Source of the DNA: Poseidonibacter lekithochrous | GTDB taxonomy: Bacteria; Campylobacterota; Campylobacteria; Campylobacterales; Arcobacteraceae | NCBI RefSeq assembly: GCF_013283835.1 | Contig: NZ_CP054052.1 | Location: 1,550,001-1,614,000 of the forward strand | Direction: 5' to 3' | DNA: 64,000 nt | Part shown: positions 26,184-28,469 of the stretch, in pieces | How positions within the stretch are numbered: the stretch's first letter is position 1 | How the letters are laid out: the number at the start of each line of letters is the position of its first letter | Made by a program: the position numbers and the translations under genes | Notes under the pieces: model-generated | What the model was told of the DNA's origin: nothing | Seen by the model: only the letters and a program-made list of their open reading frames with translations | Databases searched by the model: none

Positions 26184-26332
26184 TTTATATCCTTTTTATT
26201 GATTTATTTTATTTAAATCATGTGTAGTGTGTGTTTAATAATATTATTATTTTCTTATAACTTATCGTAATCTTGGTATCTATTAGATAAAATATAAGTA
26301 AAAATATTATTTTATGACTATAAAGGTTCAAT

Positions 26333-26440
26333 ATGAGAAGTAGCTGTTTTAATAAATATAAAGAGTATATTAGTTATACTTCTTTTAACACACCCCCTCC
26401 ACCTCTCAATGAAGTGCCAACGAAGGGGTTTTCTTCATGA
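26333..26440 (+). CDS. 35-aa proline-rich leader peptide overlapping the Abi gene
   Basis: A short frame starts at ATG 26333 with AAAGG six bases upstream and ends at TGA 26438-26440, whose bases overlap the ATG of the Abi gene (ATGA). It encodes 35 residues: a Lys/Tyr-rich first half and a run of four prolines (NTPPPPLNEVPTKG). Consecutive prolines slow ribosomes, so it could act as a translational control leader. The DNA around the prolines can also pair (CACCCC with GGGGT), so the signal may lie at the RNA level. No product is proven. Confidence 0.45.
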   Translation: MRSSCFNKYKEYISYTSFNTPPPPLNEVPTKGFSS

Positions 26441-27417
26441 GTAACTTACAAGAACAACTTCAAAATATAAAAAATCAAGAAAATAGATATCAAAAAAAGT
26501 TTAAAACTTTTGATGAACAATTAATTTTATTAAAACAAAGAAAACTAAATATTACAAATGATTCTTTTGTATTATCTAAACTTCAAAGAATTAACTACTA
26601 TAGACTTAGTGCTTATTTTTTACCATTTAAACAACTTCAAGATACAGATAAAAAAGATGATTTTTTAGAAAATACTTCTTTTGAAAATATTATTCAATTA
26701 TATTATTTTGATAGTGAACTTAGAAAAATCATATTTGAAGCAATTGAGAGTATTGAGATATATTTTCGTACACAAATTACATATAGTCATGCTCTTAGAT
26801 ATGAATCATTTGGATATTTAGAAAAAGATAACTTTGAATGTTCTCAAGGTTTTTTTGAGAAAGTACTATTAAATCTAAAAGATGAAACAAAAAGATCAGA
26901 AGAAATTTTTATAAAACATTTTAAAGATACATATCAAACTACAGACTTACCACTTTGGGCAGTAGTAGAAGTAGTATCCTTTGGAACAATATCAAAACTG
27001 TATTCAATACTGAAAACAAATGAACAAAAAGAAGTGATATTTAAACTAAAAGGTATAAATAACAATGTCTTCAAAAACTGGCTTCATGGATTATCAGTAG
27101 TACGAAATATTTGTGCTCATCATAGTAGACTTTGGAATAAAACTTTAGGTGTTAAATTTGAAATACCAAGGAAACTTAATGAATTTAAAAGTATTAAAAG
27201 AACTAGCTTAGTTGATGGGAAAGAAATAAAACTAAATGACAAAATATTTTTTGTATTGAGTATTATTGAATTTATTCTTTCAAGTATAGGAGAAGATGAA
27301 ATAGAGTTTAAAACAAAAATTAAAAACTTAATAAAAAAATATCCCAAAGTAAAATATGAGAGCATGGGATTTATTGAAAACTGGGAACAAAATCCTATTT
27401 GGAAAGATGAAGAATAA
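26437..27417 (+). CDS. Abi_2 family protein (AbiD/AbiF-like, HEPN-type abortive infection)
   Basis: A 326-residue protein of the Abi_2 family. FDEQLILLKQRKLNI at residue 24, then INYYRLSAYFLPFK, YYFDSELRKIIFEAIESIEIYFRTQI and PLWAVVEVVSFGTISKLYS are family hallmarks, and VVRNICAHHSRLWN near residue 225 is the Rx4-6H HEPN signature seen in RNases. AbiD/F proteins of Gram-positive bacteria protect against phage by halting infected cells. The antiphage role here is inferred. No antitoxin gene is obvious, but the proline-rich leader overlapping its start could limit its translation. The ATG also follows GAAGGGG. Confidence 0.88.
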   Translation: MSNLQEQLQNIKNQENRYQKKFKTFDEQLILLKQRKLNITNDSFVLSKLQRINYYRLSAYFLPFKQLQDTDKKDDFLENTSFENIIQLYYFDSELRKIIFEAIESIEIYFRTQITYSHALRYESFGYLEKDNFECSQGFFEKVLLNLKDETKRSEEIFIKHFKDTYQTTDLPLWAVVEVVSFGTISKLYSILKTNEQKEVIFKLKGINNNVFKNWLHGLSVVRNICAHHSRLWNKTLGVKFEIPRKLNEFKSIKRTSLVDGKEIKLNDKIFFVLSIIEFILSSIGEDEIEFKTKIKNLIKKYPKVKYESMGFIENWEQNPIWKDEE

Positions 27418-27428
27418 ACTTATTTAGT

Positions 27429-28469
27429 TTAATTCTCTTCTTTTTTACCTTCTATTCGCTCTTTTTTATATTGTAAGTATGGAGTTATGATATTGTGATT
27501 TTTCATAACCTTTGAGAAGTCTTCTTTGCTTGTGATTCTTTTGACAATTGTTTCCATTGATTCTAGGTTTTTATTGTTTAGTTCTTCTTCTAGTTCTGCA
27601 TATTCAATTAGTAGTGAGTCCATAGCAAAATGATAGTCAAAAGCCATAGCACCTTTATCATTGATTACTTTTTTTATGAATATCCAGTTATCAAATATTT
27701 TAGCCCAAGATCTTTTTTGTTCACCTGTTCTACAAAAAGTATTGATAATAGATTTCCATCTAAACAATGCAAAATATGCTTGATGACTAGACCAAAGCTC
27801 AGCAATCCACCAATCTTCATATTTTGGGAAACCATGAAAATTACACTTTGGAGGAGTTTTACCATCTTCACATTTTACAGTGAAGTTCTCTTTTAATACT
27901 GATAAAAATACAGAGAAATGTAGTATAAGAACTGGTATTTTATAGTTTAGCATCTCTAGTTCGCTAATTTTGCCATCTTTTGTATTCTTTAGAAGGTCTT
28001 TGAATTCGGCTTTTATTATGCCTAATTTATCGGCTAGTTCTTTGTGGTCTTTTAGATTTAACTCTAGGGATTTAACAGCTACTTCAAAAAGCTCTTTATC
28101 TTCGAAGTTTATATTCTCTGGAAGCTCATCTATAATCATCATAGCTTCTAGTTTTTGGTCGTCACTTCTTTCTTTGCTATTTAGGATTCGCATATTTTGT
28201 TCTTCAAAATATTTCTTTCTTCTTATAGCTTCTTCTAGTCTTTCTTTCTCTGCTAGTTCTTCTTGATCTTGTTTTAGAAGTTCTTCAAGCATAAGTTTGT
28301 GTTTTGTTAATAACTCTTGTGCCTCATCTAGTTTTGTTTCAGCAGAAGCTAGAGCTACTCTGGATAGTTTATTTTCGCCTGATTCATGGTCAGCTAGTTG
28401 TTTTCGCTCAAATTTAACTCTTGCTTCTTCTGCTTTGATTAATTCTTCTAGGGCTATAAGGCTATTCAT
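27429..28469 (-). CDS. Coiled-coil protein of unknown function, 346 aa
   Basis: I do not recognise this family. The first ~100 residues are almost all heptad-like Glu/Lys/Leu/Arg coiled coil (LEELIKAEEARVKFERKQLADHE onward), followed by a helical middle and a globular part around residues 200-300 with several cysteines and tryptophans (CEDGKTPPKCNFHGFP, YEDWWIAELWSSHQAYF). There is no signal peptide or membrane segment. It is convergent with the Abi gene (11-base gap) and 31 bases downstream of the transposase-like gene, probably in one transcript with it. The ribosome site at ATG 28469 is weak. Confidence 0.6.
   Translation of the reverse strand: MNSLIALEELIKAEEARVKFERKQLADHESGENKLSRVALASAETKLDEAQELLTKHKLMLEELLKQDQEELAEKERLEEAIRRKKYFEEQNMRILNSKERSDDQKLEAMMIIDELPENINFEDKELFEVAVKSLELNLKDHKELADKLGIIKAEFKDLLKNTKDGKISELEMLNYKIPVLILHFSVFLSVLKENFTVKCEDGKTPPKCNFHGFPKYEDWWIAELWSSHQAYFALFRWKSIINTFCRTGEQKRSWAKIFDNWIFIKKVINDKGAMAFDYHFAMDSLLIEYAELEEELNNKNLESMETIVKRITSKEDFSKVMKNHNIITPYLQYKKERIEGKKEEN

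Follow-up and report, generated by a model that had tools for sequence, protein, structure and literature searches.

An AbiF-type RNA element and an overlapping open frame upstream of an Abi_2 gene in Poseidonibacter lekithochrous

The Abi_2 gene at position 26437 of the window, which is the whole stretch of 64,000 nucleotides analysed (positions 1550001-1614000 of the one-contig Poseidonibacter lekithochrous genome of 3,568,672 bases), is directly preceded by an RNA element (26387-26436) that, as judged by sequence comparison and covariation, matches the abiF RNA (RF03085) in place and structure. In Campylobacterota a frame that crosses this element is kept open and forms an ORF which terminates on or close to the start of abi. 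Computation shows the RNA element with its placement and covariation, the AbiF-type nature of the protein, the open frame, and the overlap of the abi Shine-Dalgarno site with the outer helix of the RNA (P1). With somewhat better than even confidence, we read the segment as a compact AbiF-type RNA toxin-antitoxin control region, in which translation of the leader on a longer transcript would open P1 and couple into abi. The original prediction for this DNA had proposed a proline-rich leader peptide gating the Abi gene; the conserved element that it missed is the abiF-type RNA, which, as far as the available text of PMC12373285 goes, is a toxin-binding antitoxin RNA in the systems studied.

The abi locus and its predicted toxin

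The leader frame runs from the ATG at 26333 to the TGA at 26438-26440, and its 35-aa translation is MRSSCFNKYKEYISYTSFNTPPPPLNEVPTKGFSS. The 35-residue frame described by the original prediction is therefore real, and the details that it had listed can be read in the sequence: AAAGG six bases 5' of the ATG (26322-26326), a TGA overlapping the abi ATG at 26437, and four consecutive prolines, encoded by CCC CCT CCA CCT at 26393-26404. The features of the region are the following:

26322..26326, plus strand: AAAGG, likely Shine-Dalgarno site of the leader, 6 nt 5' of its ATG
26333..26440, plus strand: leader ORF, 35 codons, whose stop overlaps the abi start (ATGA)
26375..26380, plus strand: TATACT, inferred -10 box of an internal promoter within the leader ORF, from a position profile of 30 loci
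26387..26436, plus strand: inferred antitoxin-like RNA, from A26387 to the base before the abi start, with the 5' end placed from the -10 spacing only
26393..26429, plus strand: 37-nt core, from gapless alignment to relatives above the RF03085 cut-off
26393..26398, plus strand: 5' strand of P1, CCCCCU, source of the proline codons, pairing with 26423-26428
26400..26402, plus strand: 5' strand of P2, CAC (AGC in RF03085), from alignment and covariation
26414..26416, plus strand: 3' strand of P2, GUG (GCU in RF03085), from alignment and covariation
26423..26428, plus strand: 3' strand of P1, AAGGGG, also likely Shine-Dalgarno site of abi
26437..27417, plus strand: AbiF/AbiD-type toxin gene (Abi_2), 326 aa, from Pfam, PADLOC and PDB
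27103..27123, plus strand: codons 223-229 of abi, RNICAHH, HEPN ribonuclease motif R-N-x3-H, from invariant residues

The position profile behind the -10 box mis-anchored two of its 30 loci (L005 and L054), and the TATACT box was not reported by the sigma-70 consensus scan, which requires a -35 hexamer. In five loci (L005, L007, L008, L012 and L057) a GTGCAC palindrome lies about 20-35 nt upstream of the -10 box and is perhaps an operator; the window does not contain it.

The gene at 26437 encodes what sequence and modelled structure identify as an AbiF-type HEPN protein, a predicted toxin. The protein matches PF07751 with 195.1 bits against a cut-off of 25.6 (E 1.7e-57), which bears out the Abi_2 gene named by the original prediction, and PADLOC assigned it to AbiD (4e-80). 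By sequence it is similar to PDB 8vz6 chain A along its length (E 4.8e-43). The AF2 model reached a pLDDT of 91.1, and its sole PDB fold match at E <= 0.001 was 8vz6 again, which is PbAbiF bound to ncRNA (E 1.5e-16, TM 0.81, 31% identity); a Cas13d match in the same fold search was not significant (rank 5, E 3.4). Residues R223, N224, A227 and H228 are invariant in alignments of 17 and 21 sequences. In the text available of PMC12373285 and PMC12737573, AbiF-type toxins are reported as ancestors of Cas13. The earlier idea of a HEPN toxin controlled at its 5' end agrees with what is known of the family. The named relatives of abi belong to Arcobacter, Sulfurimonas and other Campylobacterota-type records, and the source genome contains one Abi_2 match; a paralogue candidate (L002, 65 bases, E 7e-4) was rejected, as it is not an Abi_2 gene.

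The locus is variable among relatives. In two genomes of the genus, G006 and G002, the sequences flanking the abi region are separated by 33 nt and 28 nt, respectively, and both are without abi and the gene at 27429-28469; in G004, from the same genus, abi is broken by frame breaks and the 27429-28469 gene is absent. Flank similarity ends near 26237-26245, so the leader lies within the inserted part. The 27429-28469 gene, on the minus strand, encodes a 346-aa protein for which Pfam, NCBIfam and PADLOC gave no match, and is part of the variable stretch adjoining abi.

The RNA element upstream of abi

An element recurs 5' of the abi genes of relatives: a box resembling a -10 element is followed after some 6 nt by AACA, then by a C-rich strand, the inner helix, a loop starting with CUCU and a G-rich strand immediately before the abi start codon. 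RF03085 was found above its cut-off in five of 150 relatives, always directly 5' of the abi match, and gave weaker matches at the same place in G124 (36.8 bits), G028 (30.7), G080 (20.5) and G112 (20.2), of which G080 and G112 are orthologues nearer to the window. The window copy was not reported by the model, as it does not reach the 37-bit gathering score, so that membership of RF03085 by score was rejected for it; this counts against our preferred reading, as does a single C.A mismatch in its P1 (26397/26424). The window element aligns gaplessly to RF03085-positive relatives scoring 40-47 bits, and shares with them the position 5' of the Abi gene and the P1-P2 architecture (nine pairs). Folded alone, 151 nt of the window are unremarkable (z 0.01).

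Covariation was studied by laying the RF03085 structure on 23 distinct elements. Standard pairs occupy 97.1% of the 207 pair cells, and sliding the pairing partner collapses the structure to 56.0% paired at best. Cells changed on both sides number 50, compared with 17.8 +/- 4.5 in shuffled data (0/500 reach this value), and double-sided changes are found in seven of the nine pairs. Two of the five measures do not rise above the shuffles: the number of pairs with a double change (122/500) and the number of further pair types (477/500). The shift of P2 from AGC:GCU to CAC:GUG compensates both outer pairs, and a lengthened form of the helix also holds. The CACCCC/GGGGT pairing suspected in the original prediction thus corresponds to a real RNA helix, formed by ACCCC (26392-26396) and GGGGT (26425-26429), with covariation over the 23 relatives. 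The Rfam abiF model misses the CAC/GUG form found in the window.

An Abi_2 match was found in 52 of the 397 genomes of the class, which we grouped by score into 28 strong (E < 1e-40) and 24 weak ones, the grouping being our own. A search model built from the 23 elements (R1) matched, at E <= 0.1, 20 of the 28 strong genomes, a recall that is partly built in since R1 was trained on many of those 20, and none of the 24 weak-only genomes, a count that this does not affect. The 24 weak genomes carry a second Abi_2 subfamily of the class. At E <= 1e-4 the model located 22 places: 19 in strong-Abi genomes and one in each of G022 (an abi remnant, L089), G430 (a truncated abi, L091) and G142 (without a visible abi, L094); the weaker matches examined fall within unrelated genes (e.g., L096 and L097). 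Among 89 viral-contig, plasmid and phage loci, R1 matched 22 at E <= 0.01, two of them near copies, and RF03085 was found in eight of the 20 of these that were scanned, three above cut-off.

Three further observations concern the distribution of such RNAs. L089 and L094 show an antitoxin-like RNA without an intact abi, as orphan antitoxins or through decay. In L206 (positions 1548-2492, G113) an abiF-like RNA (R1 E 1.1e-6) and a leader ORF precede a Fic-domain gene (Pfam Fic 4.9e-22), the control region there possibly acting on a different toxin. A third form of the RNA, which lacks CCUCU (e.g., ACCUCUCGGGUGCUU-GCACUGACUGGGAGGU), occupies the same place in another family (L061, L063, L065, L066 and L069) and is covered by neither R1 nor RF03085.

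Compact layout and the open leader frame

In 25 loci of other origin, the end of the element and the chosen abi start are separated by a median of 27 nt (minimum 19), and the start often follows a T run and has its own Shine-Dalgarno site. By the same measure the window has 7 nt. In 40 of 41 Campylobacterota loci the P1 G run ends no more than 11 nt from the start (median 8); L052, at 18 nt, is the exception and has a separate spacer and no leader. Because of this short distance, the 3' strand of P1 probably doubles as the Shine-Dalgarno site of abi in Campylobacterota. In predicted ensembles of the RNA-plus-start region, this site is less than 0.3 unpaired in 38 of 40 loci (median 0.003); with the 5' part of the RNA removed in silico, its median accessibility is only 0.22 and exceeds 0.5 in 4/40 loci, which counts against coupling. 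P1 is followed by UUUUCUU, and a consensus scan reported no intrinsic terminator between the RNA and abi, the loop exceeding the length permitted by the scan. The leader stop falls exactly on ATGA in 30 of the 36 in-register loci, and 34 of these 36 have an A at +4 of abi, compared with 31 of 53 window ORFs (p 1.4e-6); the three loci with the leader in another register have none.

The 41 Campylobacterota loci are those with the RNA element and a readable abi start, and include L089, whose abi is decayed, and L206, where the Fic gene replaces abi. Excluded were near copies (L027, L028, L030, L031, L063 and L192), loci with an unclear start or decayed abi (L067, L091 and L203), without abi (L094), at contig ends (L204 and L207), with a different 5' region (L020), or of the other Abi_2 subfamily (L070 and L071). 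Starts of abi were read by hand, registers were anchored on them, and the ORFs of the window served as baseline for codon-position GC and the +4 base.

In 39 of the 41 loci, all but L052 and L089, an ORF begins 5' of the inferred 5' end of the RNA, runs across the RNA and has its stop at -14 to +32 relative to the abi start. Upstream-only shuffles gave 22.1 +/- 2.9 such loci (maximum 30), or 23.6 +/- 2.2 when 36 nt of promoter were kept. For the exact leader register, the counts are 34/41 against 14.5 +/- 2.8 in shuffles and 18.1 +/- 2.4 with these 36 nt kept. A set of 24 loci of other origin (26 minus L160, whose start was not found, and L152, a near copy) shows the ORF in 16, compared with 15.7 in shuffles, that is, at chance, and they show no preference for the leader phase when it is counted from the -10 box (9/24 vs 17 and 9). 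As the ORF is kept so far above the shuffles, the non-conservation of the frame that would have spoken against the original prediction was not observed, and a chance ORF was rejected for the Campylobacterota loci, where openness exceeds both the other registers and the shuffles.

The open stretch extends well upstream of the RNA. Upstream of -66, past the -10 box, 34 of the 41 loci have an open stretch of at least 12 codons in the leader register, against 13 and 5 in the other registers, and first-order Markov shuffles give 14.1 +/- 2.9 (maximum 22 in 300). By upstream-sequence clusters the counts are 31/38 against 11 and 5, and at loose clustering (27 clusters) 21.8 against 8.7 and 4.1, the loci being related. 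Stops in the leader register are rare to about -110 (5/560, 7/350 and 10/350 in successive bins) and then reach background (32/350; 35 loci). An in-frame start between -136 and -86, open to -66, is present in 33/41 loci against 6 and 3 in the other registers, and Shine-Dalgarno-like matches of at least 4 nt precede 20 of 56 leader-register starts, compared with 1/23 and 8/49 (Fisher p 0.0019). Leader length ranges between 26 and 126 codons across loci.

A gene on the same strand lies upstream in 27 loci. In 13 of them the leader begins on or directly next to the stop of that gene, and in nine of these 13 (L012, L029, L055, L057, L060, L065, L066, L069 and L200) the upstream gene belongs to a restriction-modification system, which links abi to restriction operons. 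The remaining upstream genes encode a KAP NTPase (L205), a reverse transcriptase, Drt3b in PADLOC (L206), and proteins with no Pfam match (L008 and L013). The independent cases are fewer than 13, since L055, L060, L065, L066 and L069 share their context. Genes 3' of abi include hsdS (L060 and L066), hsdR (L029), hsdM (L200) and a type III res gene (L057).

Control of abi: proposed mechanism, rivals and known systems

The preferred reading includes two transcripts, an antitoxin function at this locus and translational coupling, all of which we infer. The internal promoter (-10 at 26375-26380) would produce a short abiF-like RNA from about 26387, on which P1 would lock the abi Shine-Dalgarno site and leave abi untranslated; the same short RNA could bind and restrain Abi in the manner of RCd22 and AbiFr. 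With its ATG 54 nt 5' of the point where the RNA is inferred to begin, the leader cannot be carried whole by a transcript made at the internal promoter. A second, longer transcript from further upstream, from a restriction operon in many relatives, would carry the leader ORF, and ribosomes translating it would cross the RNA element, open P1, stop on ATGA and pass into abi. Only the open frame would count and the peptide itself would be irrelevant. The sigma-70 consensus scan found no promoter upstream of the leader in the window, which counts against a model with two transcripts. A stronger form of the proposal, to which we give a little less than an even chance, is that one segment has two mutually exclusive outputs: an untranslated antitoxin RNA locking the toxin ribosome-binding site, or a ribosome-unfolded 3' half of the leader feeding the toxin. 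If so, the toxin or antitoxin output would be set by promoter choice and leader translation, with no information in the peptide.

Readings that give the peptide a role must be set against its content. The original prediction suggested that a leader with four consecutive prolines, which slow ribosomes without EF-P, could gate Abi until translation is disturbed, and the window frame has these prolines and is kept open. Of the two things it proposed to look for in relatives, the frame is conserved and the proline run is not: four consecutive prolines occur in 8/41 loci and three or more in 14/41, a count in which L025, L050 and L062 were read off-register, none of them having three consecutive prolines in the correct register. 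The proline codons arise where the frame passes through the C-rich 5' strand of P1, and relatives with the AGC/GCU form read TPQAS at that position. No amino-acid conservation or purifying selection was detected in 13 gapless loci, where similarity does not exceed column shuffles, upstream differences at codon positions 1, 2 and 3 number 711, 656 and 638, and the third register, used as a control, does better upstream (6/300 and 0/300 shuffles reach its scores). Codon-position GC of the leader is flat (.276/.261/.261 vs.410/.303/.159 in window ORFs), and G004, the nearest relative of the window with the locus, does not have the start region of the window's leader; like the lack of amino-acid conservation, both count also against our preferred reading. 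Proline stalling was therefore rejected as a conserved mechanism and we regard it as very improbable. A functional small protein, such as a peptide antitoxin, would suit a short ORF directly 5' of and overlapping a toxin gene, which is where many type II antitoxins are found; since the leader has no amino-acid conservation and no Pfam, NCBIfam or PADLOC match, and its length varies so widely, the peptide antitoxin was rejected, and a role of this kind seems highly unlikely. Taken together, the absent conservation, the flat GC, the unshared start and the minority of loci with four prolines make the peptide look immaterial.

Two other explanations do without the peptide. The open frame could follow incidentally from the promoter and RNA sequence that the loci share and from their kinship, and not be translated to any effect; the RNA accounts for the conservation in 26387-26436, the -10 box is stop-free in the leader phase, and the leader's composition, lack of amino-acid conservation and start unshared with the nearest relative all suit this view. 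It does not predict that openness reaches upstream of the -10 box, survives shuffles that keep 36 nt of promoter and has no counterpart in phase among the 24 loci of other origin, nor the ATGA overlap with A at +4 and the leader starts overlapping upstream gene stops, and we consider it unlikely. The anatomy would be identical if the sign were opposite, with leader translation keeping Abi low or destroying the antitoxin on long transcripts as a brake or tuning device: ribosomes crossing the element would block its folding on that transcript, and translation of abiD1 is inefficient and regulated according to the part of PMC2661086 available. Against this stand the ATGA overlap, which is the usual geometry of upward coupling, and the burial of the Shine-Dalgarno site in P1, which make the opposite sign quite improbable.

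The toxin and the RNA belong to or adjoin known kinds; what is new is the Shine-Dalgarno site in P1 and the kept-open leader through the RNA. The RCd22/AbiF system of a Clostridioides difficile prophage resembles the window in its Abi_2 HEPN toxin with R-N-x3-H, a structured ncRNA directly upstream and a promoter immediately before the RNA. In the available text of PMC12373285, RCd22 is transcribed from this promoter and in most cases ends ahead of abi; it reduces abi expression in cis and binds the Abi toxin directly, thereby neutralising it. Unlike the window, it contains two abiF motifs and an intrinsic terminator, and the ribosome-binding site of abi is separate, 168 nt away from where the RNA begins. 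The window has instead one motif, ending 8 nt before the abi start, with P1 supplying the Shine-Dalgarno site and the element inside the kept-open leader. PbAbiF/AbiFr (8vz6) is alike in the fold described above; the portion of PMC12737573 available describes PbAbiF as an ncRNA-bound dimer and AbiF as binding and also processing its RNA, and that portion mentions no leader ORF. RF03085 itself shares the 37-nt core, P1 with an inner P2, CCUCU at the 5' side of the loop and the position 5' of Abi genes; the window differs in having CAC:GUG and not AGC:GCU in P2 and a C-rich P1 with one mismatch, and in not being reported by the model.

AbiD1 of Lactococcus lactis is an Abi_2-family protein whose gene is also preceded by a short RNA: as far as the text available of PMC2661086 goes, a 50-base transcript stops before the gene, the ribosome-binding site is held in a stem-loop, translation is inefficient, and the phage protein Orf1 activates it. 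That system differs from the window in that a trans-acting phage protein and low temperature activate it, and the same text describes no leader ORF. In the literature searched, which included few subscription journals, no report was found of a leader ORF at AbiF loci or of an AbiF RNA in Campylobacterota.

In attenuation and coupling leaders of the ermC and trp type, translation of the leader alters the RNA structure over the ribosome-binding site of the next gene, and the peptide sequence or its stalling is the sensor. The window departs from this type in its non-conserved peptide, and also in that the structure to be opened itself resembles an antitoxin.

Should the leader function in this way, an RNA antitoxin would be turned off in cis by translating a frame that overlaps it, which would give an AbiF-type toxin a simple trigger. 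If the reading with two exclusive outputs is true, abortive infection would be linked through the leader to expression of the surrounding restriction system.
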